Assembly: GCA_947581645.1 (NCBI GenBank)
Contig: CANPVF010000161.1
Location: 1-39,218, forward strand
DNA length: 39,218 nt
Direction: 5' to 3'
Source: Candidatus Caribbeanibacter nitroreducens
GTDB lineage: Bacteria; Gemmatimonadota; Gemmatimonadetes; Palauibacterales; Palauibacteraceae
In this document: positions 9,350 through 25,652 of the stretch, one piece after another
How the letters are laid out: every line of letters starts with the position of its first letter
Position numbering within the stretch: the first letter of the stretch is position 1
Notes under the pieces: model-generated
The model's database searches: none
What the model was told of the DNA's origin: nothing
Seen by the model: the letters and a program-made list of their open reading frames with translations, nothing else
Position numbers and translations under genes: made by a program

Positions 9350-10656
9350 CGTGGGGCTCGGACGGCGAGGGCGCCACCGTGGTGGCCCTGGGCGTCGTGG
9401 AGGTCGGGCTCCTGGCCGCCGTGGGCTGGCTCCCGGGAGCGCGCGGGACCCCGCTCCCGGCCCTGGCGCTGTGGGGCGGGGCCTTCGCCTGCTACGCCGC
9501 CGCCGCGGCCCGGCTCGGCGGCCCGGGGCTGCGGCCGGGCGCCGGCGCGGAGCGGGCGCCGGGGCTGAGGACGCGGGACCTGTGGATCGTCGGGATCGCC
9601 GCGCGCCTGGCCCTGCTCCCGCTCCTCCCCCACTTCACCGACGACATCTACCGGTACATGTGGGACGGCTGGGTGCAGCTGAACGGGGTGAACCCGTACG
9701 TGCACCCGCCGGCGGCGCCGGAGCTGGCCGAGCTGCGCACGGCCTGGCACGGACTGGTGAACCACCCGGGGGTGTCGACGATCTACCCGCCGGCGGCCCA
9801 GCTCGTCTTCGCGGTCCTGGCCCTGGCCGGGCCCGCGGTGTGGGTCTTCAAGGCCGCCTGGGTGGTCGCCGACCTGGCCGCCGCGGAGGTCATCCGCCGG
9901 CTGGCCCGGCGGCGCGGGGGCGACGGCCGCCTCCCCCTGCTCCTCTACCTCTGGTGTCCGCTGCTCCTGGTGGAGGTGGCGTGGAGCGGACACCTGGAGC
10001 CCCTGGGGCTCCTGCCCATGACGCTGGCCCTGGCCGCCGGAGCCGCGGGAGGAGGTGCGTGGCTGGCCCTCTCCGCCGGCGTGAAGTTCGCCCCGGCGGC
10101 CGCCCTGCCGGCCCTCTGGCGCCGTCGCGGGGGACGGGCCGCCCTGCTCTTCGCCGCCGTGGCCGGCGCCCTGACCCTCCCGTACCTGCTGGGGGCCGGA
10201 AGCGCGATGACGGACGGGCTGCTCGAGTACGCCCGCCGGTGGTCGTTCAACCCGGGCCCCCACCGGCTGCTGTCGGCCGTGCTGGGAGGGGCGGACCCGG
10301 CCCGGTGGGCAGGCGCCGTGGCGGTGGCCGGTGTCGCGGGCTGGGCGGCCTGGCGCCGCTGGCCGCTGGAGCGGACGCTGCTGTGGACGGTCGGCGCGGG
10401 CCTGCTGGTCTCGCCCACGCTCCACCCCTGGTACGTGCTCTGGGTGCTTCCGCTGGCGGCCCTCCGGGGCAGCCGCGGCTGGATTCTCTTCACCGGTACC
10501 GCCCTGCTGGGCTACTGGCACCACGAGACGTTCATGGCCACCGGGCAGTGGCCGCAGCCGGCGTGGCTCTCGGCGCTCACCTGGGCCCCGCCGATTCTCC
10601 TCCTGGCCGTCGACGGCGCCCGGGAGCGGGAGGCTGCGTCTACTCCCGGTAGTTGA
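9319..10656 (+). CDS. Multi-pass GT-C-fold glycosyltransferase (GT87/mannosyltransferase-like)
   Basis: This is a 445-aa (or 425-aa) integral membrane protein with about 10-12 hydrophobic segments. The first external loop contains FTDDIYRYMWDGWVQLNGVN, with paired acidic residues typical of polyprenyl-phosphate-sugar-dependent GT-C enzymes, followed by PYVHPP and STIYPPAAQL. The periplasmic-side end LLVSPTLHPWYVLWVLPL is also common in this group. It probably moves a mannose or hexose from a lipid carrier onto a lipid or glycan. ATG 9319 overlaps the divergent GT2 gene by 31 bp. GTG 9379, preceded by GAGGG, avoids the overlap and is a serious alternative. The 3' end overlaps the convergent lipoprotein gene by 17 bp. 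Confidence 0.85.
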   Translation: MIGSWLPWSPSWGSDGEGATVVALGVVEVGLLAAVGWLPGARGTPLPALALWGGAFACYAAAAARLGGPGLRPGAGAERAPGLRTRDLWIVGIAARLALLPLLPHFTDDIYRYMWDGWVQLNGVNPYVHPPAAPELAELRTAWHGLVNHPGVSTIYPPAAQLVFAVLALAGPAVWVFKAAWVVADLAAAEVIRRLARRRGGDGRLPLLLYLWCPLLLVEVAWSGHLEPLGLLPMTLALAAGAAGGGAWLALSAGVKFAPAAALPALWRRRGGRAALLFAAVAGALTLPYLLGAGSAMTDGLLEYARRWSFNPGPHRLLSAVLGGADPARWAGAVAVAGVAGWAAWRRWPLERTLLWTVGAGLLVSPTLHPWYVLWVLPLAALRGSRGWILFTGTALLGYWHHETFMATGQWPQPAWLSALTWAPPILLLAVDGAREREAASTPGS

Positions 10657-11182
10657 ACGGCTTCCAGCGTCCGTTCCACTCCACCAGGACGTCCAGGATC
10701 TCGATGTAGCCCTCCTCCCCGTCCGGAGCGCGTCGCACCCACACGCGCGCGCCCTTGTGAAGGGTGAAGTCCTCGTAGTGCTCCGGCTCCCGCTGGAACT
10801 CGACGCGGACCAGCTCCAGCTCCGCTCCGCCGTACTTTCTGAGCGCGGCGTCGATTCCCTCGGTCGTGTTGTGCCGGTTCAGCTTTCGCACGTAGCCGAA
10901 GGGAAGCGTCCCCCGCTCCGGCAGGTGGGGCCACAACAGGTTCCGGTGCTCGTCGCGGGTCACCAGCAGCTTCCCGAGCCCCCGCTCGCTCCTCCGCTCG
11001 ATGGCGTCGAGAACGGCTCGCGCCACCGCCTCCGGGCTCTCCTTCGCCCGCGCCATCCCCCGTGCCTGTGCCACGTCGCCGCAGCCAGCGGCGGCCGGAC
11101 CCGTGAGGACGACGGCGATCAGCAGGGCGGCGATGACCGGCGGCGAGGCGGACCTCCGTCCGTCGCGTCGCAGTTTCTCCAT
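10640..11182 (-). CDS. Small secreted lipoprotein, function unknown
   Basis: The product is 180 aa. A basic N-terminus, a hydrophobic core and the lipobox-like AAGC with Cys34 predict a lipidated periplasmic or outer-membrane protein. The mature part begins with a helical segment (SPEAVARAVLDAIERRSERG), continues through RDEHRNLLWPHLPE and ends in a mixed-strand domain (VEFQREPEHYEDFTLHKGAR, then DVLVEWNGRWKPF). The C-terminal part resembles small cystatin/NTF2-like lipoprotein folds, but no named family was recognised. ATG 11182 has a GGAGAAGAGGAGAAG Shine-Dalgarno. It is convergent with the GT-C gene, with a 17-bp overlap. Confidence 0.82.
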   Translation of the reverse strand: MEKLRRDGRRSASPPVIAALLIAVVLTGPAAAGCGDVAQARGMARAKESPEAVARAVLDAIERRSERGLGKLLVTRDEHRNLLWPHLPERGTLPFGYVRKLNRHNTTEGIDAALRKYGGAELELVRVEFQREPEHYEDFTLHKGARVWVRRAPDGEEGYIEILDVLVEWNGRWKPFNYRE

Positions 11183-11310: not shown

Positions 11311-13122
11311 TCAGCTACCCGGCGCGGGGCGGGAGTCGTCTCCCCCCACGGTCCACACGGTCCACCCGGAGTACCAGGCGTCCGCGACGGCAGTGCCGGG
11401 CTCGACGGCGCCGGCGTAGCTGGTCTGCTGCAGCGTGCGGCCGTCGGTGGGCATCACCAGACCGGGCCCGTTGTTGAGAGCCGAGACGTCCACCGCGGTG
11501 TAACCCGACGGCGTGCCGCTCGGGACCAGGTTGGGCGGGCTGCTCATGCTGCCGATGTCGAAGGCTCCGCTCGCGAGCTGCGGATCGGCGAGCATGTTGT
11601 TGAAGCCGCTCTCGGTGAAGAAGTTCTCGTTCTCCGACTGGCTGTAGCCGTCACCGGACTCGTCGGCCAGGTTGTCGGCCGCGGCTCCGCCCTGGGCCAC
11701 GTTCGAGTACACGATGTTGCCCTCGAAGCGGAGGGTGCTGGACGGATCCGTCTGGCCCGCCAGCCTGTTGTCGGCGTACTGGGCCGTCTGCGCGCCCTCG
11801 ACGTCGAAGCCGCTGGCGCCGAATCCCGTGACGATGCTGTTGAACACGCGGTAGTTGGAGCCCTCGCGGAGCAGGACACCCGCGTCGCTGGAGCTCCCCT
11901 CGGCGGCGATCTCGCCGCTCCCGAGGTCGACGCCCGCGCCCACGAGCGTGGCGTTGGCCAGAACCGCGGACGAGTGCGGGCTGGCGTCCGGCGTCGAGCC
12001 GTTGTTGGACAGCTCCAGGCCCTGGTCGGCGTTGTCGCCGCGCTGCTGGGCGATCAGGAACTGCATGAAGCCCTGGTAGCCGTCGGTGCCGTCGAAGCTG
12101 TCGTCACCGATGCCGGTCATGACCATGTGCGTCTGGGTCGTGGTCCCGCCGAAGGGCTCGGTACCGTCGTCGACGTTGTAGTGCACCTGGACGTAGTCGA
12201 CGGTGGTGGCGGAGCCGGTGCCCTGGAAGGCGATCCCGTTCAGCTGGTCGGTGGCGGTGACGTCGTCGCCGGCGTACTCGACGCGGACGCCGCAGAGCAC
12301 CCCGCTGTCGTCGTCGGCCTCGGTGCCGCCGTACAGGCCGGAGTCACCCTCTCCCTGGGCCTCCTGGCCGGAGTTGATGGGCGCCTGGCCGTTGATGACC
12401 AGCCCTCCCCAGTCGCCCCGGGCGCGCTGGCCCCGCGGCTGGTCGGAAGTGAAGACGATCACGCTGTCCGCCGTCGGCCTGGTGCACCCCTGGTCGTTCG
12501 GATTCGCGTCGGCGATGATCTTCGAGCCGCGCGACACGACCAGGTAGCTGCCCCGGACGCTCGTCGTCGGGTCCTTGCGGCCGTAGACGGTGGTGCCGGG
12601 CTCGATGGTGAGCGTCACGGCGTCGGCGCAGTCCCCGGACGGGCCACAGTCGCCGCCCACGAAGACGGGCCCGTCGAGCACCCAGTCCCTGTCCGCGGTG
12701 AAGGTGGTGTCCGTGGTGATGTCGCTGTCGATCACGGCGACATCGGAGTTCGGCGCCGGCACGTCCACCGATGCGGACGCGCTGTAGCCGGACGATCCCG
12801 CGCCGTTGGACGCCTGCACCTGGGCAGCGTAGGTCTGGCCCCGGTTCACGCCGCCGAACGTGGCCGTCGTGGTGCCGGACTGGACCGTCTGCGTCCGCTC
12901 GTCCGAGCTGGAGGAAATGCGCACCCCGTACTCGTCGGCGCTGGAGACGGCGTCCCAGGTGACCGTGATGGTGTCCTGGCTCACCGTGGCCTGCACGTTG
13001 CCGGGAGCGGAGGGGGCGTCAGGGCCCGTTCCGTTGTTCCCGTTGTCATCGCTGCACGCCGCCAGGGACAGCATCCCCAGCACGGCGACGATCGCAGCGC
13101 CCCTGTACATAGTCAGTTTCAT
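11311..13122 (-). CDS. Surface lipoprotein with Fn3 domain, partner of the TonB receptor
   Basis: The product is 603 aa from ATG 13122, which has a GAGGAAGAGGAA Shine-Dalgarno. A further in-frame GTG 54 bp upstream (13176) lies inside the 13171-13213 hairpins and is disfavoured. A lipoprotein signal ends at LAAC with Cys23. A fibronectin type III domain follows (about 34-125). The larger part begins around TLTIEPGTTVYGRKD, then GSYLVVSRGSKIIADANP and GDWGGLVINGQAPINSG. This pattern is known from Bacteroidota outer-surface proteins, often encoded beside TonB receptors, and probably forms a right-handed beta-helix. Several Cys pairs could form disulfides. It lies 145 bp downstream of the receptor gene in the same orientation, so it is probably part of a PhoB-controlled unit. 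The ligand is unknown; phosphate or a phosphorylated compound is inferred from context. Confidence 0.85.
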   Translation of the reverse strand: MKLTMYRGAAIVAVLGMLSLAACSDDNGNNGTGPDAPSAPGNVQATVSQDTITVTWDAVSSADEYGVRISSSSDERTQTVQSGTTTATFGGVNRGQTYAAQVQASNGAGSSGYSASASVDVPAPNSDVAVIDSDITTDTTFTADRDWVLDGPVFVGGDCGPSGDCADAVTLTIEPGTTVYGRKDPTTSVRGSYLVVSRGSKIIADANPNDQGCTRPTADSVIVFTSDQPRGQRARGDWGGLVINGQAPINSGQEAQGEGDSGLYGGTEADDDSGVLCGVRVEYAGDDVTATDQLNGIAFQGTGSATTVDYVQVHYNVDDGTEPFGGTTTQTHMVMTGIGDDSFDGTDGYQGFMQFLIAQQRGDNADQGLELSNNGSTPDASPHSSAVLANATLVGAGVDLGSGEIAAEGSSSDAGVLLREGSNYRVFNSIVTGFGASGFDVEGAQTAQYADNRLAGQTDPSSTLRFEGNIVYSNVAQGGAAADNLADESGDGYSQSENENFFTESGFNNMLADPQLASGAFDIGSMSSPPNLVPSGTPSGYTAVDVSALNNGPGLVMPTDGRTLQQTSYAGAVEPGTAVADAWYSGWTVWTVGGDDSRPAPGS

Positions 13123-13170
13123 CGTATTCCTCTTCCTCGTATTTGAGGTGGATTCGAAGCTCTCCCGCGT

Positions 13171-13213
13171 GTTCACCGCTCTGGTGAACGGTCCTCTGCG
13201 CCCACCTCGTGGG
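13171..13213 (-). promoter_or_regulatory. Intercistronic hairpins between TonB receptor and lipoprotein genes
   Basis: GTTCACC (13171-13177) and GGTGAAC (13183-13189) form a perfect 7-bp stem with a 5-base loop. CCCAC (13201-13205) and GTGGG (13209-13213) form a second small stem. In the 145-bp gap they could attenuate read-through or mark an RNA-processing site that sets different levels of the two proteins. Confidence 0.45.
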
Positions 13214-13267
13214 TGGACGATTTCCGATGTGCCGTGCCTCGTCAGGAGGCCGTGATCGATCCGGCGG

Positions 13268-16129
13268 TCATCCGCCGTAGGTGAAGCTCACGGAGAACGT
13301 CCGCCCCGTGGTATAGCGCCTCTGCACCCGCGTGATGCCGTTCATCGACTGCTCCCACAGGTGCTCGGAGTCGAGCAGGTTGGTGGCCTCGAGCTCCATG
13401 TCGACGCGGGGCCCCAGGGACTGGCTGACGGTGAAGTCGAGCTCCGGGCGCGGCTGCTCGACCACGTCGGGCTGCCCGGAGCCGCCGGCGGCGGTGATCC
13501 GCTCGCCGAAGACGTTGAAGGAGGCCCCGACCTCGGTTCCCCGGTCCGGCGTCCGGTAGTTGAGCGTCGCGCTGGCGGCGTAGTCGGACTGCCCCTCCAG
13601 GGCGCGCTCGAGGTTCGTCGGGTTGTAGATGCCGCCGCGGCGGACGTTCACCCGGGAGTCGATGAGCGCCAGGTTGCCGCCCACCGTGAACCCGCCGACG
13701 TCGTGGAGCAGGCCGAGCCGCTTCCTGGCGCCGAGCTCCGCGCCGTAGATGCGACCGTCCTCGGCGTTCTGGTAGGAGTACGCCTCGCCGGCGGCCGAGA
13801 TGAAGACCTGCTCGATGGGCTTCTCCAGCTCCTTGTAGAAGCCGCTCAGCGAGACCACCTCGCCGGCCCCCGGGAACCACTCCCAGCGGAGGTCCACGTT
13901 CGTGATCTCGGCGGCCTCCAGCTCCGGGTTTCCGAAGACCTGGCGCAGGCTGGCCGCCTCGGTGAACTGGAAGGGGGCGAGCTCCCGGAACTCCGGCCGG
14001 TCGGTGGTCCTGCTGGCGGCTGCCCGGAGGTTCATGTCGTCGGTGAGCGAGTACGTCAGGTTCACGGCCGGGAAGACGTCGGTGCGCTCCTGGCTCGACA
14101 GCAGGGTCGTGGAGTCCGTCGTCTGCGTGAGATCGCGGAGCGTCAGCTCGTACCGCTCCACCCGGGCGCCCAGTGTGGCCGTGACGTCGCCGGTCAGCGG
14201 AACGGTGATCATCCCGTAGCCGGCGATTCGGTCGTCGTCGGCCGTGTAGGTGTCACCGGGCTCGGAGAGCTCCGTGAGCATCAGGCTGTTCACCCCGTCC
14301 AGGCTCCCGGAGACGTTCTGCGGCGTCAGCACCGAGTCCAGGCTGGTGATCGACGCCCCCTGGTTGAAGCGCCAGCGGAAGCGGCGCGCCGCGAAGTCAC
14401 GTCCCCGGTCCCGGGCCGAGACGCCGACCTTGACCTCCGTGTCCCGCTCGGTGAGGAGCTCGAAGGGGATCGTGAGGTCGAGCCCCCCGCTGACGTCCGT
14501 CTCCGTCAGGTCGCTGAACAGGTAGCGGGCGCTCTCGCCCGTGTTCTCGAGAACGAAGGGCTCGTCCTCGTCGGTGAACCCGCGCTTGTAGATGGCCTCG
14601 CGCAGACCCGGCTCCTCCCGCTTCGCCCGGGCGGCGCCGCCCCGCCACTCCAGGCGGAGGTCGCCGGGTACCTGGTGCTCGCCGGAGAGCTGTCCCCAGG
14701 CCATCTCCCGGGCGATGAACCGCAGCCGCTCGTCCCGGAGCACTCCGCCCAGGTCCTCCCGGTTGGGGCCGACGTAGGTCCGTGCCTCGTCGGAGCCGTG
14801 CCGGTTGTAGAGCGTCTTCAGGCTGATCTGGTGCTTCGGCGTCGGCTGGTAGGTGAAGTTTCCGATGCCGCCCCACTCCACGTCCTGGCTGCCCCGCGTG
14901 AACTCGTAGTTCACGTTGGGCTCGACCTCGCGCTCGGCCACCAGCTCCGGGTCGAAGGCCGTGGTCCTCCACTTCCTCTCGATCTCGTCCCGGCGGATCG
15001 AGTAGCTGTTGGCATAGCTCCCGGCGAGGAAGTAGCCGAAATCGTCGCCGAAGACCTCGGTGCGGTCGCCCAGGGCGAAGCTCCAGTCCACGTTGCTGGG
15101 GGTCGAGCCGGCGGTGGGGGAGAACTGCGAGAGATCGCCGAGGAGCGACTCGCCCAGGCGCTCGCGGCTGGAGGCGCTGGCCGGCAGCGACTGTCCGCTG
15201 AGGCCGCCCAGCTCCTCGGTCATGGTCGACGGCATCTTGCGGCTGCCGTCGTCGATCCCCAGGAAGTCCAGCGACCCGCCCGGGTAGTTCAGGTAGCCGT
15301 CGTTGAACTGGCTCCGGGTGTTGACGCTGCTGCCCACCGAGAACTTCGCGGTAAACCGGTCCGGGAACTCCTTCGTCTCGATCTGCACCGTCCCGCCCGA
15401 GAAGTCCGCCCCCTCGTCCGGCGTGTAGGTCTTCTGGACCTTCACGCTCTGGAGGAAGCCCGCCGGGAAGAGGTCCAGCGGCACCACCGACTTCTCCGGC
15501 TCCGGGCTCGGAAGCGGCGATCCGTTCAGGGACGTCTGGCTGTATCGCTTCCCCAGCCCCCTCACGAAGACGTATTTCCCCTGTGTCACCGTGACACCGG
15601 CGATCTGCTTCGCCGACTCGGCCGCGTTCGACACGGGGAGACCGGAGATCTGCTCCTCGCCGACGGCGTCGCTGACCGTCAGGGACTGCTTCTGCTCGTC
15701 CAGCAGGGCCGCCGCCGACCCCTTCTCCTGCTCCACGGAGACCGTGAGGTCGTTGACCTCCACGGCCTCGGGGGAGAGCGTGACGTCGAGGCTCGTCGCC
15801 TGACCCGCCTCGATGGTCACCCCCGTCACCGTCTTCCGCGAGAAGCCGAGGCTGCTCACGACCAGCTCGTGGGTTCCGGCCGGAACCTGGCTCAGCTGGT
15901 AGCGGCCGTTCAGGTCCGTCAGGGTCCCGATTCGGGTGCCCTGGAGCTGGACCGTCGCCGACGAGACGGGCGATCCGTCCTCGGAGTCGACGACCTGTCC
16001 CTGGATCCGGCCGGTCGCCCGGTCGGTGTCCTGTGCGGGAGCGGGTGCGGCCGCGGCCAGGAGTGCCGCCGCGGCGACGACGCTGGCGAGCCTGCTGCCG
16101 GGGGGGCTGGCCGGTGCTGTTCGGGTCAC
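13268..16129 (-). CDS. TonB-dependent receptor with carboxypeptidase-regulatory domain
   Basis: This 953-aa outer-membrane active transporter begins with a signal peptide ending AAAAPAPAQ. An N-terminal carboxypeptidase-regulatory-like beta domain follows (about 40-125; GQVVDSEDGSPVSSATVQLQ, GRYQLSQVPAGTHELVVSSL). A plug comes next (about 130-260; KYVFVRGLGKRYSQTSLNGS and DEGADFSGGTVQIETKEFPD). The C-terminal beta-barrel ends FSVSFTYGG, without a T9SS tail. GTG 16129 is chosen for its AGGAGG Shine-Dalgarno. Upstream at 16264-16318 are four 11-bp-periodic repeats like those before the pst operon, so it is probably induced by PhoB in phosphate starvation. The substrate cannot be read from the sequence; phosphate esters, polyphosphate or metal-phosphate complexes are possible. 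Confidence 0.92.
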   Translation of the reverse strand: MTRTAPASPPGSRLASVVAAAALLAAAAPAPAQDTDRATGRIQGQVVDSEDGSPVSSATVQLQGTRIGTLTDLNGRYQLSQVPAGTHELVVSSLGFSRKTVTGVTIEAGQATSLDVTLSPEAVEVNDLTVSVEQEKGSAAALLDEQKQSLTVSDAVGEEQISGLPVSNAAESAKQIAGVTVTQGKYVFVRGLGKRYSQTSLNGSPLPSPEPEKSVVPLDLFPAGFLQSVKVQKTYTPDEGADFSGGTVQIETKEFPDRFTAKFSVGSSVNTRSQFNDGYLNYPGGSLDFLGIDDGSRKMPSTMTEELGGLSGQSLPASASSRERLGESLLGDLSQFSPTAGSTPSNVDWSFALGDRTEVFGDDFGYFLAGSYANSYSIRRDEIERKWRTTAFDPELVAEREVEPNVNYEFTRGSQDVEWGGIGNFTYQPTPKHQISLKTLYNRHGSDEARTYVGPNREDLGGVLRDERLRFIAREMAWGQLSGEHQVPGDLRLEWRGGAARAKREEPGLREAIYKRGFTDEDEPFVLENTGESARYLFSDLTETDVSGGLDLTIPFELLTERDTEVKVGVSARDRGRDFAARRFRWRFNQGASITSLDSVLTPQNVSGSLDGVNSLMLTELSEPGDTYTADDDRIAGYGMITVPLTGDVTATLGARVERYELTLRDLTQTTDSTTLLSSQERTDVFPAVNLTYSLTDDMNLRAAASRTTDRPEFRELAPFQFTEAASLRQVFGNPELEAAEITNVDLRWEWFPGAGEVVSLSGFYKELEKPIEQVFISAAGEAYSYQNAEDGRIYGAELGARKRLGLLHDVGGFTVGGNLALIDSRVNVRRGGIYNPTNLERALEGQSDYAASATLNYRTPDRGTEVGASFNVFGERITAAGGSGQPDVVEQPRPELDFTVSQSLGPRVDMELEATNLLDSEHLWEQSMNGITRVQRRYTTGRTFSVSFTYGG

Positions 16130-16263
16130 GCTGAAACCTCCTGCGATCGATGTATCCGAGACGTCGGAGCTGCGAGTCTGTTGGGTCCGACACGGCGAGA
16201 ATCAGGCGCTTCGGCACGGACGGCCGGTCGACCGTCGTCCTTTCCTTCCCCGATTCGGATGGG

Positions 16264-16318
16264 ATGATACCAGCGCTGATTCACGGGGAGGTACAGCCGG
16301 GGTAACGGCGGGGTAACG
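16264..16318 (-). promoter_or_regulatory. Candidate PhoB box and promoter of the TonB receptor gene
   Basis: Read on the minus strand there are four heptamers spaced exactly 11 bp: CGTTACC (16318-16312), CGTTACC (16307-16301), CTGTACC (16296-16290) and CGTGAAT (16285-16279). Nine bases later TATCAT (16269-16264) is a plausible -10. Heptamer direct repeats with 4-bp spacers, ending about 10 bp before a -10 and replacing the -35, are the known arrangement of PhoB boxes. The same arrangement occurs at 20513-20566. Confidence 0.75.
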
Positions 16319-16424: not shown

Positions 16425-17867
16425 TCAGGAGGCCGCGCCCCGGAGGCTGGAGACCGCCGTCGACAGGTAGCCGGCGGCGAAGAGCAGCGTGAAGGGGACG
16501 GCTGCCGGGTCACCGGCAGCCAGGTGGCGCGCCGTCGCCACCAGCAGCAGGAGCCCGAGGCCGAGCCGGAGGAGGGTCCGGACGGGCCGCAGGGAGACGC
16601 TGTACTGCCGGAGGAGGCCGGAGCCGATCTTCGGGGTGCGGCGGAACGGTGTGTCCTCTCCCGCGTCGACCGCTCCCCGGGCCACGGCGCCGCTCAGCGG
16701 AACCCCCAGGCCGATCCCCAGCGTCATCGCCTCCGCGACCTTCCGCAGCCCGGCCGCGGGACGCGCGCCCCGGAGCCACGCGGCGACCCCGTAGAAGAGC
16801 AGGAAGGGGAGGACGGCCAGCGACAGGGCCAGGGCGTGAAACCAGTCCGGGAGCCCCTGCACACCGCCCAGGAAGCCGGCGGCCGCAAGGGCCACCCCCA
16901 GTGCAGTGGTCAGCGGGTGGGCCAGGTGGCTGAGCAGGTGGGAGGTGGCCTCCATCTTCACGGCGGGAGACTCGCCGCTCCGCCAGATGGCCGGCAGGAG
17001 CTTTCGGGCCGTCTGCACGCCGCCCTGGGCCCACCGCTCCTGCTGGACCTCCAGCGAGCGCACCGAGGCCGGAAGCTCGCCGGCGACCCGGACATCGTCG
17101 CGGTAGACACCCTTCCAGCCCCGGAGCTGGGCCCGGTAGCTCAGGTCCAGGTCCTCGGTCAGGGTGTCCCCCTCCCAGCCGCCGGCGTCGCGGAGACACT
17201 CGCGCCGCCACATCCCCGCCGTGCCGTTGAAGTTGAAGAAGAGCCCGGACCGGCATCGGGCCTCGTGCTCCACCGCGAAATGGGCGTCGAGCAGAACGGC
17301 CTGGGCCCGGGTGAGCCACCCGCCGTCGTCCTCGTTCAGGTGCGACCACGCGCCCTGGACCAGGCCCACCTCCGGGTCGTCGAAGGCGGGAAGCAGACGT
17401 CGGATCAGCTCCGGCTCCGGGACGAAGTCGGCGTCCAGGATCAGGAAGAAGTCGCCGGAAGCGCGCTCCACGCCGTGGGCCAGGGCGCCGGCCTTGTATC
17501 CCTCGCGCGATTTCCGCTGCAGGTGCCGGACGTCGACTCCCCGCTCCCGCCACGCGGCGACGCGGCGGGCGGCGAGCTCGGAGGTCCCGTCGTCGGAGTC
17601 GTCCAGGACCTGCACTTCCAGCCGGTCCGACGGGTAGTCGAGCCGGCAGGCGGCGTCGATGGCCCGCTCCACGACGTTCGCCTCGTTGTAGACGGGGAGC
17701 TGCACGGTGACGGGGGGGAGCTCGCCCGTCCAGGTGTCCCTCTCGTGACCGGGATCCCGCCGGAACCGCAGCCACAGCAGGTAGAGGCGGTGGAGTCCGA
17801 AGGGGAACAGGAGCAGCAGGATCAGGACGTAGGCCCCGGTGGCCGCGAGCTCGACGAATTCGGTCAC
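16425..17867 (-). CDS. Processive family 2 glycosyltransferase (cellulose/mannan-synthase-like)
   Basis: This 480-aa inner-membrane synthase has a membrane helix at its start (AATGAYVLILLLLFPFGL), a GT-A catalytic domain and several C-terminal helices. Motifs in order are VQLPVYNEANVVERAI, the nucleotide-site LDDSDDGT, the metal-site DADF, TEDLDL (catalytic base) and QQERWAQG, the Q-x-x-R-W signature of processive beta-glycan synthases. It resembles CslA/glucomannan-type enzymes more than BcsA, and no PilZ domain is present. GTG 17867 is chosen because the first helix follows at once. GTG 17939 would add an Arg/Ala-rich, unconserved-looking stretch. It is divergent from phoB, with 114 bp between the starts, and may make a phosphate-free surface glycan; that role is inference. 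Confidence 0.85.
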   Translation of the reverse strand: MTEFVELAATGAYVLILLLLFPFGLHRLYLLWLRFRRDPGHERDTWTGELPPVTVQLPVYNEANVVERAIDAACRLDYPSDRLEVQVLDDSDDGTSELAARRVAAWRERGVDVRHLQRKSREGYKAGALAHGVERASGDFFLILDADFVPEPELIRRLLPAFDDPEVGLVQGAWSHLNEDDGGWLTRAQAVLLDAHFAVEHEARCRSGLFFNFNGTAGMWRRECLRDAGGWEGDTLTEDLDLSYRAQLRGWKGVYRDDVRVAGELPASVRSLEVQQERWAQGGVQTARKLLPAIWRSGESPAVKMEATSHLLSHLAHPLTTALGVALAAAGFLGGVQGLPDWFHALALSLAVLPFLLFYGVAAWLRGARPAAGLRKVAEAMTLGIGLGVPLSGAVARGAVDAGEDTPFRRTPKIGSGLLRQYSVSLRPVRTLLRLGLGLLLLVATARHLAAGDPAAVPFTLLFAAGYLSTAVSSLRGAAS

Positions 17868-17981
17868 GTCTTCGATTCCGCGGGCGCGGCTCGGTGCAGC
17901 GCGGTTGCGCGCCGCAGTTTCGCCTCGCCAGTTATCCACGACGGGCGACCGTGCACGGACCCCGAGCCCACGTCAGGAGCC

Positions 17982-18677
17982 ATGGCCGACGAACACATCC
18001 TCGTCGTCGACGACGAACCGGACATCCTCAGCCTCCTCGTGTATCAGCTGAGCCAGGAGGGCTTCAAGGTCAGCACGGCCGTCAACGGCCGCTCGGCGAT
18101 CTCCACGGCCAGGGACGAGCACCCCGACTGCATCGTCCTCGATCTCATGCTGCCGGGCATCGACGGGTACGAGGTCCTCAAGACCCTGCGCCGGGACGAA
18201 GGTACCGAGGACATCCCCATCCTTCTACTCACGGCGCGCCAGGAGGAGGAGGAGCGGGTCAGGGGCTTCGAGTACGGCGCCGACGACTACGTGACGAAGC
18301 CGTTCAGCAACCGCGAGCTCGTGCTCCGGGTGAAGGCGCTCCTCCGGCGCGCGAAGTCCGGGCCCGTCTCGGCCGGCCGCGGCCTGTCGGTGGGCCCCGT
18401 GCGTGTCGATCGCGAGGCCCATCGGGCCTTCGTCCACGACGAGGAAATGGACCTCACGCCGCTGGAGTTCCGCCTGCTGGAGACGCTCGTGGAACGCAGG
18501 GGGCGGGTGCAGTCCCGCCGCCAGCTCCTGCAGGCCGTATGGGAGACCACCGCCGACATCGAGACGCGGACGGTGGACATGCACGTGGCACGGCTCCGCA
18601 CCAAGCTCGGGGACGCCGGCGGCCTGATCGAGACCGTGCGCGGAGTCGGCTACCGCTTCCAGGCGGTGGACCGCTGA
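17982..18677 (+). CDS. phoB: PhoB-type response regulator
   Basis: This 231-aa OmpR/PhoB-family transcription factor has a receiver domain at 1-120 with acidic pocket Asp10/Asp11, phospho-acceptor Asp54 in LDLMLPG, Thr85 and Lys106 in TKPF. The C-terminal winged helix contains LTPLEFRLLETLVERRGRVQ and ends with VRGVGYRF. ATG 17982 follows CAGGAGCC. When phosphorylated by PhoR it is expected to bind 11-bp direct repeats, such as those at 16264-16318 and 20513-20566. No such repeat is visible before phoB itself, so autoregulation is not evident. phoR follows after 64 bp, and the pst operon follows phoR, which fixes its identity as PhoB among similar regulators. Confidence 0.93.
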   Translation: MADEHILVVDDEPDILSLLVYQLSQEGFKVSTAVNGRSAISTARDEHPDCIVLDLMLPGIDGYEVLKTLRRDEGTEDIPILLLTARQEEEERVRGFEYGADDYVTKPFSNRELVLRVKALLRRAKSGPVSAGRGLSVGPVRVDREAHRAFVHDEEMDLTPLEFRLLETLVERRGRVQSRRQLLQAVWETTADIETRTVDMHVARLRTKLGDAGGLIETVRGVGYRFQAVDR

Positions 18678-18741: not shown

Positions 18742-20454
18742 ATGACTCTCCGGACGCGGGTCCTCGCCACGGTCGCCCTCTCGGTGGCGGTCCTCTCCTC
18801 GGCCCTCCTCTGGTGGGCCTCGGGGCCCTTCGAGTCGCAGATACGGGACCGGTGGACGGACGAGCTGGAGCGCGAGGCCCGCCTGGCGAGCGAGCACGTC
18901 GGCGACGCCGCCTTCTCGGACTCCCTGGCGGACGCCCTCGGGTCGGTCGTCGGCCACCGTATCACGCTCGTGCGGGAGGACGGCCGCATCGCCGGCGACT
19001 CCGAGGTCTCCTCCGACCGCCTCTCCGCCCTGGGCGACTACTCCGACCGGCCCGAGATCCGGGCTGCCCTCGCCGGCCGGGTGGGATCCGACCTCCGCGC
19101 GAGCACCGTCGTCGCCCGGGAACTCCTCTACGTGGCCGTGCCCCACGGACCCGGGGTTCTGAGGGTGGCGATGCCGGCCTCGGAGCTGGACGGACCCGTC
19201 GTTCAGATCCGCCGGGTCACAGTGGTGGCGGCGGCCGGGGTGCTCCTCCTGCTCCTGGCCCTCGCCGGTCCCCTCGAGCGCTTCCTGGCGGCTCCGATCC
19301 GACGGGTACGGCACGCCCTCGAGGAGCTGCGTGAGGGCCGGTTCGGCGCGCGCCTCGGGCCGTCGGGAGACGACGAGGTGGCACGACTCGCCCGTGCCTC
19401 CGACCGTATCGCCGACCGCCTGGAGCGGATGGAGGAGGGCCTCGAGGAGGGGCAGGAGCTGGAGGACGTCTTCCAGCACATGGACGAGGGCGTGGCCGTC
19501 GTGAGCGGCGACGGCCGGGTGACCCGCGCCAACCGTGCCTTCCTGGACGTGCTGGGCCGCGACGACGCCGTGGGCGAGCGCTTCGGCACGATGTTCCGGG
19601 ACCCGGCGCCGCGGCGGCTCCTGGAGCGGGGGCTGGAGGGCGAGGCCGGGAGCCGGGAGGTCGAGCTCGGGGAGAGCCACGTCCTGCTCTCGGTGCATCC
19701 CCACGGCGACGGGGCCGTGGTCACGTCCCGGGACCTGACCCGGCTCCGCCGGCTCGAGGGGGTCCGCCGTGATTTCGTGGCCAACGTCTCCCACGAGCTG
19801 AAGACCCCGCTCACCAGCGTCCTGGGCTTCGCCGAAGCCCTGGCGGACTCCGAGATGTCGCCGGAGCGGGCCCGTGACTTCGGCCAGCGGATCCTGAAGA
19901 ACGGCGTCCGTATGCGGCGGATGATCGACGAGCTCATGGACCTGTCGCGCGTGGAATCCGGGGCCTGGGAGCCGGAGCCGGTGGAGGTCTCCCTGGCCGA
20001 CGCCACGCGCAGGGCCTGGCAGGCGGTGGCCGGGGGACGCGACGAGGATCTCGAGCTGGACGTCGACCTCGACGAGGACACGGCGGTCCGGGCGGATCGG
20101 GGCGGCCTGCGGTCCATCCTCCGGAACCTGCTGGACAACGCCGCCCGCTACAGTCCGGCCGGAGAACGGGTCACCGTCTCGGCCGCGCCGGTCGACGGCA
20201 TGATCCGCGTCGAGGTCCGGGACCGGGGCCCCGGGATCCCCACGGCCCACCGCGACCGGATCTTCGAGCGATTCTACCGCGTCGACGCGGGACGCTCCCG
20301 CGAGGAGGGCGGCACGGGGCTCGGCCTGGCCATCGTGAAGCACCTCGTCGAGGCCCACGGCGGCGAGGTCGGGGTCGAGAGCCGGGTGGGACGGGGTTCC
20401 ACGTTCTGGTTCACCGTGCCGGCGACATCGGGTCGCGGCACCCCGGCGAGGTAG
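18742..20454 (+). CDS. phoR: Phosphate sensor histidine kinase PhoR
   Basis: This is a 570-aa inner-membrane kinase. The order is TM1 (about 6-26), a periplasmic sensor region of about 130 residues, TM2 (about 159-176), HAMP (about 177-230), PAS (about 240-335), HisKA with His351 in [13 protein letters not shown], and HATPase with N-box [22 protein letters not shown] and [19 protein letters not shown]. The long periplasmic domain makes it the extended PhoR type rather than the short enterobacterial form. It phosphorylates PhoB when PstSCAB/PhoU signal low phosphate; this is the established logic of the family. ATG 18742 follows GGAGCGAAGGG. No in-frame ATG, GTG or TTG occurs between it and the phoB stop. 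Confidence 0.93.
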
Positions 20455-20512: not shown

Positions 20513-20566
20513 CGTGACACGATCGTTACATCCTCATAACGTCACCGTCGCATTCCGCTGTAAACT
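20513..20566 (+). promoter_or_regulatory. Candidate PhoB box and promoter of the porin-pst-phoU operon
   Basis: Four heptamers lie at exact 11-bp steps: CGTGACA (20513-20519), CGTTACA (20524-20530), CATAACG (20535-20541) and CGTCGCA (20546-20552). Eight bases later TAAACT (20561-20566) may be the -10. The layout matches the site before the TonB receptor gene. The region is also AT-richer than its surroundings. Transcription would start about 60 nt before the porin ATG. Confidence 0.75.
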
Positions 20567-20630: not shown

Positions 20631-21824
20631 ATGATTGGAGAGCGTTCACTCTCCGGAGGCGACTCTGCGCGCTTCCGGCCGATTCACGTGGCTGCCGTGG
20701 CGCTGATCGGACTGCTGGCGGTGCCGTCGACTGCACCGGCGCAGGAGGGTGTTCCGATCGTGTCCAGCGCCGAGGAGATCGACCTGTCGGGACGGTTCCA
20801 GCTGCAGGCGGTCACGAGCAGCTGCGCCGGGGATCCGCCGGACGCGGAGTCGCCCTGCGCCTCGGTGGCGCCGGGGGTCGACTGGTTCGCCCGCCGGGCC
20901 CGGCTCTCGGCCACGGTCACGGTGAACGACTTCATCTCGGGCAAGATCGAGCCGGACTACGGATCGGTGAGCGGCGTCACGCTCCGCGACGCCTACGGCA
21001 TGCTCACCTTCAGCGAGTCGGCCAGGCTGCAGGTCGGTCAGTTCAAGAAGCCGTTCGACGGCTTCCACCTGACCAGCTCGACGCAGATCCTGACCATCGA
21101 GCGGGACCTGGACGTCCCGGGCGTACCGGGCCCCCGGGCCCTGTCGATGGCGGAGCTCACGACGCGGAACATGCTGTCCAGCTACGACCTGGGCGTCATG
21201 CTCTCCGGCCGGATCGGCGAGAACGTGCGGTACTGGGCCGGGACGTTCGACGGACGCCCCCCGGCGGCCAACGGCGACGTGAACACGGACAAGCAGTTCG
21301 TCGGGCGGCTCCAGTACAGCCTCGAGGCGGGGGAGCTGCCGCTGAAGCTGGCCGTGGCCGGGGCGCTGACGGACCTGCCCTACACCGGCGCGGAGGGACG
21401 CCTGGCCGGACAGTACTACGGAAACGGCGAGCTGTGGGCGGAGCTGGGCGACTTCGAGGGCGGCCCCCACGTGCAGGCCGGATGGGTGTTCGGCGAGAAC
21501 ACCCTGGAGTCGCCGGTCGGCGGTACGCCCACTCCGCCGGACGCGGAGCTGGCCACCATGCACAGCTTCCAGGTGATCGGCAGCTACAGGAGCGACGTGG
21601 AGGACGTGCCGCACGTGGAGGCGGTGGAGCCCCTGCTCCGGATCGCCGTCACCGAGCCGAACACGGACCTCGACAACAACGCGGTTTACGGCTTCACGCC
21701 CGGCGTGCAGGTGTTCTTCGCCGGGCGGAACAAGGTGTCGCTCAACTGGGATTTCGTGAGCTTCGCCGACGACGGGACGTCGTCCGCGAACTCCTTCAAG
21801 ATGCAGTATCAGTTTCACTTCTGA
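20631..21824 (+). CDS. OprO/OprP-like phosphate-selective porin
   Basis: This is a 397-aa outer-membrane beta-barrel. The signal peptide ends PSTAPAQ. The mature part starts with a strand-rich region (EEIDLSGRFQLQAVTS), then ARRARLSATVTVNDFISGKI and YGMLTFSESARLQVGQFKKP, the porin O/P signature with basic residues that could line the channel. It ends in FKMQYQFHF, with the terminal Phe needed for barrel assembly. ATG 20631 has GAGGGAG upstream. The in-frame GTG at 20514 is rejected because it would put the PhoB box inside the gene. As the first gene before pstS (43-bp gap) it would let phosphate cross the outer membrane for PstS. Confidence 0.9.
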   Translation: MIGERSLSGGDSARFRPIHVAAVALIGLLAVPSTAPAQEGVPIVSSAEEIDLSGRFQLQAVTSSCAGDPPDAESPCASVAPGVDWFARRARLSATVTVNDFISGKIEPDYGSVSGVTLRDAYGMLTFSESARLQVGQFKKPFDGFHLTSSTQILTIERDLDVPGVPGPRALSMAELTTRNMLSSYDLGVMLSGRIGENVRYWAGTFDGRPPAANGDVNTDKQFVGRLQYSLEAGELPLKLAVAGALTDLPYTGAEGRLAGQYYGNGELWAELGDFEGGPHVQAGWVFGENTLESPVGGTPTPPDAELATMHSFQVIGSYRSDVEDVPHVEAVEPLLRIAVTEPNTDLDNNAVYGFTPGVQVFFAGRNKVSLNWDFVSFADDGTSSANSFKMQYQFHF

Positions 21825-21867: not shown

Positions 21868-22818
21868 ATGAACTGGAAGTCTGCGACGGCGACCATCGCC
21901 GCCGGGGCGGCGATCGCTCTCACGGCCTGCGGAGGCGGAGACGGCGGACCCGAGGGCAACGTGGCCATCGACGGGTCGAGCACCGTCTATCCGATCACCG
22001 AGGCCGTCCTGGAGGAGTTCTCGGCCGCCAACCGGAACATCCGGGTGACGGCCGGCGCCAAGGGCACGGGCGGAGGGTTCGCCCGGTTCTGCCGGGGCGA
22101 GACCGACATCAACGACGCCTCGCGCCCCATCACCGAGGGCGAGCAGGAGCTCTGCGAGGAGAACGGAGTCGACTACGTGGAGATCCCGGTCGCCTACGAC
22201 GGCGTGACCGTCGCGGTCAATTCGGAGAACGACTGGGCGCAGTGCATCACGGTCGAGGAGCTGCGGCGGATCTGGCAGCCCGAGAGCACCATCCAGCAGT
22301 GGAGCCAGGTCCGGGACGAGTGGCCCGAGCGCGAGCTCGTGCTCTACGGGCCGGACACGGACTCCGGAACGTTCGACTACTTCACGGAGACCGTGGTCGG
22401 CGAGGAGGCCGCCAGTCGCTCCGACTACACGGCCAGCGCCGACGACAACGTGCTGGTCCGCGGGGTCCGCGGGGACGTGGGCTCGCTGGGCTACTTCGGA
22501 TTCGCCTACTACATCGAGAATCAGGACGAGCTCAGGGCCCTGGCGGTGGACGGCGGCTCGGGCTGCGTCGAGCCGACCCGGGAGACCATCGAGAGCGGGA
22601 AGTACGCGCCCATGGCCCGCCCGCTCTTCATCTACGTCAAGCAGTCGGCACTCCAGCGCCCGGCCGTGGAGCAGTTCGTCCGCTACTACCTGGACAACGC
22701 ACCGACCCTCGTGCCCGACGTGGGCTACGTCCCCCTCTCCGAGGAGCGGTACCGGAAGATCATGCAGGAGCACCTGGGCTCTGCCGGCGCCGGCCAGGAG
22801 AGCGCCGGCGCGAGCTGA
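21868..22818 (+). CDS. pstS: Phosphate ABC transporter substrate-binding lipoprotein PstS
   Basis: This 316-aa protein captures phosphate in the periplasm. The lipoprotein signal ends LTAC with Cys21. Phosphate-binding segments are visible: IDGSSTVYPITEAV, AGAKGTGGGFARFCRGETDI with NDASRPI, and GPDTDSGTFDYFTE. Cysteines at CRGE and CEENG may form a disulfide, as in the SphX/PstS type found in cyanobacteria and others. The ATG follows CGAGGATAGATC. It is the second gene of the porin-pstSCAB-phoU operon. Confidence 0.95.
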   Translation: MNWKSATATIAAGAAIALTACGGGDGGPEGNVAIDGSSTVYPITEAVLEEFSAANRNIRVTAGAKGTGGGFARFCRGETDINDASRPITEGEQELCEENGVDYVEIPVAYDGVTVAVNSENDWAQCITVEELRRIWQPESTIQQWSQVRDEWPERELVLYGPDTDSGTFDYFTETVVGEEAASRSDYTASADDNVLVRGVRGDVGSLGYFGFAYYIENQDELRALAVDGGSGCVEPTRETIESGKYAPMARPLFIYVKQSALQRPAVEQFVRYYLDNAPTLVPDVGYVPLSEERYRKIMQEHLGSAGAGQESAGAS

Positions 22819-22875
22819 ACGGTGCCCGGCACGACCTTCCCGACGTGTCGCTGACGTGACGCGCCCGGCGACGAG

Positions 22876-23808
22876 ATGAGCGGGCCCGGCCGCCAGGGAC
22901 GGGAGGGGGTCCTGCAGCTGGACCGTCCCTCCACCCGCGTGTGGAGGGAGCGGGTGGTGGAGGGCCTCCTCTTCCTCTGCGGGGTGATCTCGATTCTCAC
23001 GACCGTGGGAATCGTGGTCGTCCTGGTGGGCGAGTCCGTGGCCTTCTTCCGGGAGGTCCCGGCCCTGGAGTTCCTCACGGGCACCGAATGGGAGCCCCTG
23101 ATCGGCAACAGCTACGGCGTGCTCCCGCTGGTGAACGGGACCATGATGATCGCGGTACTGTCGTCGGTCGTTGCCCTCCCCGTGGGGCTCGCCACCGCGA
23201 TCTATCTGTCGGAATACGCCTCGGACCGCGTCCGGGACGTGGTCAAGCCGGCGCTGGAAGTGCTGGCCGGGATCCCGACCGTGGTCTACGGCTATTTCGC
23301 GCTCACCTTCATCACGCCGCTCCTCCGTGACGTCTTTCCGGGGATCGGCGTCTTCAACGCGGTCAGCGCCTCCATCGTCGTCGGGATCATGATCGTACCG
23401 ATGGTGTCGTCGCTGTCGGAGGATGCCATCAGCGCCGTTCCGCGATCGCTGCGGCAGGCGGCCTACGGGGTGGGCGCCACCAAGTTCGAGGTCTCCACCC
23501 GGGTCGTCGTTCCCGCGGCGTTCTCGGGCGTCGTCTCCAGCTTCATCCTGGCCGTCTCCCGGGCCATCGGCGAGACCGTGGCCGTCTATCTGGCGGCCGG
23601 CGTGACGGCCCGGGTCACCGCCGACCCGACGCAGAGCATCCAGACCATCACCTCCTACATCGTGCAGGCGAGCCTCGGAGACGCCTCCCACGGGACGACG
23701 GCCTACCAATCGATCTTCGCCGTGGGCCTCCTGCTCTTCGTCATCACCCTGGGGATCAACCTGCTGAGCGACGTGGTGCGGCAGCGCTTCCGCGAGGTGT
23801 ACGAGTGA
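22876..23808 (+). CDS. pstC: Phosphate ABC transporter permease PstC
   Basis: This is a 310-aa inner-membrane permease with six predicted helices after a cytoplasmic N-terminus of about 30 residues. The family marks are [17 protein letters not shown] and the ATPase-coupling loop [20 protein letters not shown], followed by [15 protein letters not shown]. Together with PstA it forms the channel powered by PstB. Its stop overlaps the GTG start of pstA (GTGA), so the two permeases are made in equal amounts by coupled translation. The gap from pstS is 57 bp. Confidence 0.95.
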
Positions 23809-24734
23809 GCTCGACGGCCGTGGCCGGGGAGACCGGTGCGATGGGATCCGGCGGAGGCGGACTGGAGGCGCAGGAGGACTTCGAGCCCCGTCGTGAGGCC
23901 CGCAGGCGGCTGGGAACGGCTTTCAAGTGGCTGTGCTTCTCCGCCGTGGTCTTCGGCATCGTCGCGCTCGTGGTGCTCCTGGCCGACGTCTTCATCGACG
24001 GCTACCGCTGGGTGGACTGGAGCTTCCTGACCAGCTACCCCTCCCGGTTCCCGGAGCAGGCCGGCATCCGTGCGGCCCTGCTCGGCACCCTGTGGATGAT
24101 GGGGCTGGTGGCGCTGATCTCCTTCCCGCTGGGGGTCGGGGCGGCCATCTACCTGGAGGAGTACGCCCCGAGCAACTGGTTCACCCGGACCCTCCAGATG
24201 AACATCTCGAACCTGGCCGCCGTCCCGTCGGTGGTCTACGGGATCCTGGGGCTGGCGGTCTTCGTCCGCTTCATGGCGCTGGGGCAGAGCGTCCTGGCCG
24301 GAGCGCTGACCCTCTCGCTGCTGATCCTGCCGGTGACGATCATCGCCGCCCAGGAGGCGATCAGGGCGGTGCCCGGCTCGCTGCGGCAGGCCTCCTACGG
24401 CATCGGGGCCACCAAGTGGCAGACCATCCGCCATCAGGTCCTCCCGGTGGCCCTGCCCGGCATTCTCACGGGAACGATCCTCTCCCTCTCCCGGGCCATC
24501 GGCGAGACGGCCCCCGTCCTCCTGGTCGGGGCCGTCACGTTCATCGCCTTCGACCCGGAGGGCCCCCTGGACCAGTTCACGGTGCTGCCGATTCAGATCT
24601 TCAACTGGGCCGCACGTCCCGAGGAGCAGTTTCACGCAGTGGCGGCCGGCGCTATTCTGGTCCTGCTGGTGATCCTCCTCGCCATGAACGCGACGGCCAT
24701 CTATCTCCGCAACAGGTACCGGCAGGAGCTGTAG
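23805..24734 (+). CDS. pstA: Phosphate ABC transporter permease PstA
   Basis: This 309-aa permease is the partner of PstC. A soluble N-terminus of about 35 residues, Gly/Glu-rich, precedes helix 1 ([20 protein letters not shown]). Characteristic segments are [17 protein letters not shown], the coupling loop [20 protein letters not shown] and [17 protein letters not shown]. Translation starts at GTG 23805 in the GTGA overlap with pstC. A later in-frame ATG at 23841 would shorten the tail but loses the coupling. pstB starts 4 nt after the stop. Confidence 0.95.
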
Positions 24735-24738
24735 CGCG

Positions 24739-25620
24739 ATGCCCGAGGAACCGCTCGTCGACATTCAGGCCGATACCGCGGACACGGCCCCGGAGGAGGC
24801 CGGTGGTGCGTCCGGATCGCCCTCGACGTCCGGATCACCGGGAGCGGACACGCCTCCCGTGGCACGGGACCTGGAAGCCGCGCTCGAGACCCGGACGCTG
24901 AGCGTGGACTACGACGGGGATACCGCCGTCAGCGAGATCAGCCTGTCGATCCCCCGGAACCGGATCGTGGCCTTCATCGGCCCCTCCGGGTGCGGCAAGA
25001 GCACCTTCCTCCGCTGTCTGAACCGGATGAACGACCTCATCCCGGCGGCCAACGTCTCCGGGGAGGTGCTCTTCCGCGGCAAGAACCTCTACGACTCCGA
25101 CGTGGATCCCGTGGAGGTGCGCCGACGCATCGGCATGGTGTTCCAGAAGCCGAACCCCTTCCCGAAGTCCATCTACGAGAACGTGGCCTTCGGCCTGCGG
25201 GTGAACGGCTACCAGGGCGACCTCGAGGAGCGGGTGGAGACCTCCCTGCGGGCGGCGGCCCTGTGGGACGAGGTGAAGGACCGGCTGGAGGACAGCGCCC
25301 TGGGGCTGTCCGGCGGCCAGCAGCAGAGGCTGTGCATCGCCCGGGCCCTGGCGGTGGAGCCGGAGATCCTGCTCATGGACGAGCCGGCCAGCGCGCTGGA
25401 CCCCATCGCCACCGGACGCATCGAGGACCTGATCGAGGACCTGAAGCAGGACTACACGATCGTCATCGTCACCCACAACATGCAGCAGGCGGCCCGGGTC
25501 AGCGACCTGACGGCCTTCCTCTACATGGGCGAGCTCGTGGAGTTCGGCGACACCGACCGCCTCTTCACGAATCCCCGGGAGCAGCGGACCGAGCAGTACA
25601 TCACGGGACGCTTCGGATGA
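24739..25620 (+). CDS. pstB: Phosphate ABC transporter ATPase PstB, with N-terminal extension
   Basis: This 293-aa ATPase drives phosphate import. Walker A is GPSGCGKST (81-89), the Q-loop is in [11 protein letters not shown] (132-142), the signature is LSGGQQQR (190-197), Walker B is LLMDEP with Glu215, and the switch His is in VTHNMQQA. PstB is usually about 250-260 aa; here a Ser/Gly/Pro/Glu-rich tail of about 45 residues precedes the ATPase and looks disordered. The start is supported by the 4-nt gap to pstA. A later start near residue 48 would lack a suitable codon next to a Shine-Dalgarno. Confidence 0.95.
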
Positions 25621-25652
25621 GGGCGTCCCGGGCCACGGAGGTGTGACGGGCC

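Follow-up and report, generated by a model that had tools for sequence, protein, structure and literature searches.

Organisation of the locus

The window, which is the whole stretch of DNA that was analysed (39,218 nucleotides), contains the genes of a TonB-dependent outer-membrane receptor and a putative surface lipoprotein on the same strand with 145 bp between them. The receptor (953 aa; 13268-16129, minus strand) consists of CarboxypepD_reg, plug, and TonB beta-barrel domains as matched by Pfam (PF13715, PF13620, PF07715, PF00593, and PF14905). The lipoprotein (603 aa; 11311-13122, minus strand) has a signal peptide, a lipobox, an Fn3 domain, a predicted parallel beta-helix, and a C-terminal GWT motif. 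Its coordinates are given from the ATG start instead of the GTG at 13176 where its open reading frame starts in the ORF list. The third gene (10640-11182, minus strand) directly follows the lipoprotein gene and encodes a small lipoprotein or secreted protein of 180 aa without a Pfam family.

The phosphate regulation genes are located on the other side of the receptor on the plus strand. They are phoB (response regulator, called from its sequence; 17982-18677), phoR (sensor histidine kinase with HisKA, HATPase_c, PAS, and HAMP domains; 18742-20454), an OprP/O-like phosphate-selective porin (PF07396, E 1.7e-9; 20631-21824 from its ATG start), and pstS-pstC-pstA-pstB-phoU (TIGR02136, TIGR02138, TIGR00974, TIGR00972, and TIGR02135, all above cut-off; 21868-26366). 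The phoB orthologues that adjoin the pair in the closest relatives are 54-75% identical. The preliminary description had placed the receptor and the lipoprotein behind a Pho box beside phoB-phoR-pst, and both the coordinates and the gene calls of this arrangement were borne out by the open reading frames, Pfam, and NCBIfam. Scans of the receptor-lipoprotein unit for sigma-70 promoters and terminators gave no match.

A family 2 glycosyltransferase gene (PF13641, E 1.3e-27; 16425-17939, minus strand) is located between the receptor gene and phoB and is given as context only. The Flavobacterium phoBR cluster also has a glycosyltransferase, although of another family (pf04101), and the enzyme possibly takes part in phosphate-saving lipid remodelling.

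The receptor contains the segment NDLTVSVEQ (15728-15754, minus strand) between the CarboxypepD_reg domain and the plug, which resembles a TonB box and may function as one. It aligns with EEIVVTGRN and EEVVVSASR of the proteobacterial relatives. Nine TonB_C domains were found in the genome. The TonB-ExbBD genes adjoin the pair in loci of Alteromonadales, Myxococcota, and Oligoflexia, often together with phoBR or pst. The energy coupling that had been proposed for the receptor is supported by the TonB-box-like segment, the TonB genes of the genome, and the adjoining TonB-ExbBD genes in other phyla.

Pho-box-like repeats

Two Pho-box-like repeats were identified in the window. The direct repeat GTTACCCCGCCGTTAC (GTTAC-N6-GTTAC; 16302-16317, minus strand) has a period of 11 bp and is located 172 bp upstream of the receptor start. 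The repeat GTGACACGATCGTTAC (GTGAC-N6-GTTAC; 20514-20529, plus strand) is located upstream of the OprP-like porin and the pst genes, where a longer open reading frame of the porin, from 20514, would overlap it. The whole 2.96-Mb genome contains six copies of the pattern including the two in the window, and a shuffled window contains a mean of 0.02 copies compared with the two observed. As the window's own two sites served to define the pattern, it is the recurrence in relatives that counts as independent evidence.

In the Gemmatimonadota loci of the relatives, GTKAC-N6-GTKAC is enriched 38-fold before the receptor (16 sites in 12,160 bases) compared with elsewhere (24 sites in 717,108 bases). 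Most of the 24 sites elsewhere are themselves upstream of the lipoprotein gene, oprP, pst genes, or phoB. The control patterns before the receptor gave no site for spacings of 4, 7, and 8, one site for a spacing of 5, and no site for the reversed pattern. The Pho-box consensus of E. coli (CTGTCAT-N4-CTGTCAT) shows no enrichment upstream of the Gemmatimonadota receptor genes, and the repeat of the window differs from it letter by letter. Judged by its position and its 11-bp period, GTKAC-N6-GTKAC is the Gemmatimonadota form of the Pho box, to which PhoB would bind. The Pho box that had been described upstream of the receptor is real as an 11-bp-period repeat that recurs in relatives. In other phyla, TGTNA-N6-TGTNA is enriched about 12-fold before the pair, an enrichment of 11 sites only in which neighbouring spacings are somewhat enriched too.

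Pairing and phosphate linkage in Gemmatimonadota

The lipoprotein is present in 98 and the receptor type in 101 of the 249 Gemmatimonadota genomes. Both are present in 97 genomes, the lipoprotein only in one, the receptor only in four, and neither in 147. The genomes with the receptor only are G005, G009, G028, and G041, and the match reaches the contig end in at least one of them. The genome with the lipoprotein only is G199, which is mostly one 5.5-Mb contig and in which no receptor of this type was detected. The G199 lipoprotein (locus L038) is the one most identical to that of the window (~61% over the core), and its gene lies opposite a phoR-like gene.

The receptor adjoins the lipoprotein in 39 of 40 Gemmatimonadota loci (stretches up to 20 kb). 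At least one of phoB, phoR, pst, or phoU is located within the stretch in 31 of the 40 loci compared with none of 20 control stretches, which were arbitrarily chosen 20-kb stretches taken mostly from the genomes of the same loci. Several of the nine loci without pho or pst genes are short contigs. The pairwise distances of the receptor and the lipoprotein are correlated (r=0.96, 27 loci; 0.955 after correction for PhoB), whereas their correlations with the PhoB distances of the same 27 loci are 0.53 and 0.64. Linked neighbours that are inherited jointly could also correlate, so the value of 0.96 supports contact between both proteins and does not prove it.

The co-occurrence, the adjacency, and the correlated distances thus support the pairing of receptor and lipoprotein as it was first proposed. 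Its tie to phosphate starvation is supported by the linkage of 31/40 against 0/20 and by the enrichment of the GTKAC repeat, and the linkage to pho genes is conserved in Gemmatimonadota.

The lipoprotein family and the third gene

The lipobox of the window lipoprotein is LSLAAC-SDDN. At least two acidic residues are found at positions +2 to +5 after the lipid cysteine in 26 of 35 Gemmatimonadota lipoproteins. Acidic residues just after the lipid cysteine are the surface-export signal of Bacteroidota lipoproteins. The residues in Gemmatimonadota resemble this signal, which suggests that the lipoproteins are located on the cell surface.

The Fn3 domain (12769-13011, minus strand; PF00041, E 1.4e-9) is the only Pfam or NCBIfam family matched by the lipoprotein, and Fn3 structures are at the top of the fold-search list. 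Beyond Fn3, the protein is predicted to form a parallel beta-helix (AlphaFold2 pLDDT 82, pTM 0.80). No relative of this core was found by the PDB sequence search with the lipoprotein and its profile, and the generic Beta_helix model is matched by only 4 of 52 family members. Seven acidic residues (D318, D319, and E322; D340, D341, and D344; E370) are encoded at 12007-12171 on the minus strand. They form a ladder about one rung apart on the beta-helix, are invariant in the 52 lipoproteins from many phyla, and recur at the same place of the successive predicted strands 321-324, 343-346, and 369-371. The carboxylate ladder of the model would most simply be a divalent-metal site, and it may bind a metal or a ligand.

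The third gene was found in 10 of the 40 Gemmatimonadota loci. Small lipoproteins of 160-190 aa, likewise without a Pfam family, are encoded after the lipoprotein gene in loci of Gemmatimonadota, Acidobacteriota, Poribacteria, and Latescibacteria (L094, L102, L106, L116, L134, L142, L146, and L153). The 180-aa protein of the window is predicted by AlphaFold2 (pLDDT 85) to consist of helices followed by a beta-sheet. Its fold search gave no confident match in the PDB, and the weak matches were NTF2/ketosteroid-isomerase-like (E >0.004, TM ~0.3).

Distribution among other phyla

The pair was identified in plasmid and genome collections from Alpha-, Gamma-, and Deltaproteobacteria, Acidobacteriota, Poribacteria, Latescibacteria, and Bacteroidota. 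The gene order in Alphaproteobacteria is lipoprotein-receptor-type II secretion genes. The gene order in Alteromonadales is phoB-phoR-pstS-(2OG-Fe oxygenase)-lipoprotein-receptor-DUF3450-ExbB-ExbB-ExbD-TonB. In Myxococcota, Oligoflexia, and further lineages of the delta type, the order is lipoprotein, ExbB-ExbD-TonB, receptor, preceded by phoBR or pst in several of them. The order in Acidobacteriota and Poribacteria is receptor-lipoprotein-180-aa protein. Many proteobacterial lipoproteins have two or three beta-helix domains in place of Fn3. Three Alteromonas loci (L074, L136, and L147) combine phoB-phoR-pstS, the 2OG-Fe(II) oxygenase gene, the pair (its lipoprotein with two or three beta-helix domains), and DUF3450-ExbB-ExbB-ExbD-TonB in a single cluster, which amounts to a TonB motor linked to phosphate. 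A paper on the TonB2 system of Vibrio mentions DUF3450 (PMC6957404).

The lipoprotein family was found in 43 of 61 sampled genomes from Bacteroidota, the phylum of Fulvivirga, and one genome has five paralogues of the lipoprotein. The receptor adjoins the lipoprotein in 18 of 20 Bacteroidota loci, and pho or pst genes are nearby in only about 5 of the 20. The synteny of receptor, lipoprotein, and pho genes, which the preliminary description had suggested testing across both phyla, was therefore found in Gemmatimonadota, whereas in Bacteroidota the adjacency of the pair holds and the phosphate linkage is partial (31/40 against ~5/20). Considering this partial linkage and the five paralogues in one genome, some members of the family may serve other ligands.

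Comparison with known systems

ElpS (CC0170) of Caulobacter crescentus is a surface lipoprotein produced during phosphate starvation, and a protease that depends on the type II secretion system releases it (PMC2996285). The overproduction of ElpS leads to higher extracellular phosphatase activity, whereas refolded ElpS and immunoprecipitated ElpS show no phosphatase activity of their own (PMC2996285). The adjoining TonB receptor CC0171 was reported to be constitutive, ElpS was still produced after CC0171 had been deleted, and intracellular phosphate showed no detectable change; a functional link between both proteins was proposed by the authors (PMC2996285). Homology to ElpS was judged by proxy through the pair of Brevundimonas (Caulobacteraceae), which has the same CC0170-CC0171-gsp gene order. 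The window lipoprotein is 37% identical to the Brevundimonas lipoprotein over 363 aa (E 3e-47), and the window receptor is 30% identical to the Brevundimonas receptor over 839 aa (E 1e-87).

Both systems thus share, via this proxy, a homologous lipoprotein, an adjacent homologous TonB receptor, and the phosphate-starvation context. They differ in gene order, which is lipoprotein-receptor-type II secretion in Caulobacter and receptor-lipoprotein beside phoBR-pst in the window. No match to gspD, gspE, or gspN was found in the window. The type II secretion genes were not seen in the non-alphaproteobacterial loci either, so they mark the alphaproteobacterial branch and not the family. The window lipoprotein also has Fn3, unlike many proteobacterial forms, which have two or three beta-helix domains in its place.

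In Flavobacterium johnsoniae, the receptor Fjoh_0545 and the FII lipoprotein Fjoh_0546 are encoded in a phoBR cluster, together with an OprP-like porin and a glycosyltransferase (PMC8115612). Both are induced by phosphate depletion (log2 8.0 and 9.9) and not by nitrogen or iron limitation, and the FI-FIII lipoproteins are related to ElpS at 31-36% identity (PMC8115612). The window receptor has PF07715, PF13715, and PF14905 like Fjoh_0545, and the window lipoprotein resembles Fjoh_0546 in its predicted pectin-lyase-like fold and in a core without a Pfam family. Both pairs are located beside phoB, phoR, an OprP-like porin, and a glycosyltransferase, whereas pstSCAB-phoU and the third gene (180 aa) are additional in the window. 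The presumed kinship of the window lipoprotein with Fjoh_0546 is based on the published comparison of ElpS with FI/FII/FIII and on the cluster and domain descriptions.

PusCD of Flavobacterium, which is of the SusC/SusD type, also combines a surface lipoprotein with a TonB-dependent transporter under phosphate control (PMC8115612). The window lipoprotein is of the Fn3/beta-helix type and not SusD. Membership in SusCD/PusCD was rejected, as the lipoprotein has neither PF07980 nor PF14322 and the receptor scores 46.6 bits against the TIGR04056 cut-off of 368. BtuB-BtuG of Bacteroides (PMC10404256) is an analogy in working only: a surface lipoprotein serves a TonB transporter, and the ligand there is a different one, vitamin B12.

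The only solved or assayed family members found in searches of the open-licence literature are ElpS and the Flavobacterium F proteins. The earlier statement that the pair has no characterised role has to be modified, since ElpS/CC0171 and Fjoh_0545/0546 have been described in the phosphate-starvation response. From the Brevundimonas matches and the likeness to Fjoh_0545/0546, the window pair is a Gemmatimonadota member of this described kind.

Proposed function and alternative explanations

We consider it somewhat probable that the pair performs TonB-powered scavenging under phosphate starvation, i.e., the PhoB-controlled capture and import of a putative phosphorus ligand. Under low phosphate, PhoB would bind the 11-bp direct repeats and switch on the receptor-lipoprotein unit together with oprP-pst. 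The promoter motif and the linkage are observed for the window pair, and its induction by phosphate starvation is inferred from relatives. The lipoprotein would be lipid-anchored on the cell surface and present its beta-helix outward. The conserved Asp/Glu ladder would hold the ligand, probably through a divalent metal, and the lipoprotein would pass the ligand to the adjoining receptor. The receptor would be opened by the pull of TonB-ExbBD, the ligand would enter the periplasm, and PstSCAB would import the phosphate released there. The most likely ligand would be metal-bridged phosphate or an organic molecule rich in phosphate, one whose scarcity or size puts it beyond the OprP porin.

The lipoprotein could instead be a surface enzyme, either a beta-helix hydrolase resembling GH28 and pectate lyases or a phosphatase, that frees a phosphorus compound of which the receptor imports the product. 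This explanation is in line with the invariant acidic residues, the weak fold matches to pectate lyases and to exopolygalacturonase 2uve, the polygalacturonase likeness suggested by homology modelling in PMC8115612, and the extracellular phosphatase activity raised by overproduced ElpS. The fold match has a TM of only 0.12-0.24, no catalytic family including GH28 and pectate lyase was matched in Pfam and NCBIfam, and ElpS lacked phosphatase activity after refolding or immunoprecipitation (PMC2996285). We regard this explanation as unlikely, and the hydrolase-like partner that the preliminary description had offered as an option loses weight, given that no phosphatase activity could be ascribed to the Caulobacter homologue itself. 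Less likely again is the uptake of calcium, iron, or another metal, free or chelated, for phosphate-starvation enzymes instead of a phosphorus source. Most known TonB systems import metal complexes, the acidic ladder suits metal binding, and a 2OG-Fe(II) oxygenase gene adjoins the pair in Alteromonas; however, the Flavobacterium pair responds to the depletion of phosphate and not of iron (PMC8115612), and the Pho-box motif is located upstream of both genes across Gemmatimonadota.

Le Blastier et al. discuss the sensing and activation of ElpS (PMC2996285), and the receptor could mainly be a signalling or lipoprotein-export partner that, for example, activates ElpS-like proteins or an extracellular phosphatase without import. 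This is improbable, as ElpS is still produced after the deletion of CC0171 (PMC2996285) and none of the genes adjoining the pair in the window was recognised as a FecR-type regulator. Gemmatimonadota have many TonB receptors, so a generic receptor and an unrelated repeat protein could be neighbours beside phoBR by chance. The probability of such chance is close to nil, as it is contradicted by the co-occurrence, the linkage control, the promoter motif, and the correlated divergence.

The scavenging reading also has evidence against it. CC0171 was reported to be constitutive with no detected change in intracellular phosphate (PMC2996285), few Bacteroidota pairs are near pho or pst genes, and the G199 lipoprotein is without a detectable receptor. 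An acidic ladder alone is no phosphate site. A fixed lid would also have no need of the partial release from the cell that ElpS undergoes.

A more specific form of the scavenging reading is advanced tentatively, as a possibility that we hold to be rather doubtful. The beta-helix lipoprotein may serve to capture metal-bridged phosphate or a polymer rich in phosphate, and with the receptor it may constitute a widespread TonB-powered phosphorus importer in many phyla, an active second outer-membrane route beside the OprP-type porins. This importer would have its own TonB-ExbBD motor in several lineages and a third small lipoprotein in others.

Significance

Phosphate-regulation genes repeatedly accompany the pair in Gemmatimonadota, in Alteromonadales, and in Myxococcota-type Deltaproteobacteria, and they do so in some Acidobacteriota and a part of Bacteroidota. 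It connects two phosphate-starvation lipoproteins that have been described separately, namely ElpS and FI/FII/FIII. The phylum-wide form of the Pho box, the co-occurrence and linkage figures, the third conserved gene, and the cross-phylum motor linkage are new in this work. Also new is the finding that the lipoprotein family comprising the window lipoprotein and the ElpS branch, with FII included via the published ElpS comparison, lacks a Pfam or NCBIfam model. If active phosphorus import is true, diffusion porins, the usual explanation, do not fully account for how phosphate crosses the outer membrane in many environmental bacteria. Direct tests are feasible in cultured Caulobacter, Flavobacterium, or Alteromonas.

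Further repeats in the genome

The four further GTKAC repeats of the genome adjoin a TonB-receptor-like gene, a sigma factor gene, fusA, and a PAS/GAF sensor gene. These neighbours are not classical pho genes. The repeats on contigs G000:C39 (L158) and G000:C131 (L161) are located before a sigma-70-family factor and beside fusA. The repeat on G000:C55 (L159; 1501-1516) precedes, by about 200-250 bp, a further TonB-receptor-like gene whose product has an N-terminus of the CarboxypepD_reg type. This gene is possibly regulated by phosphate as well.
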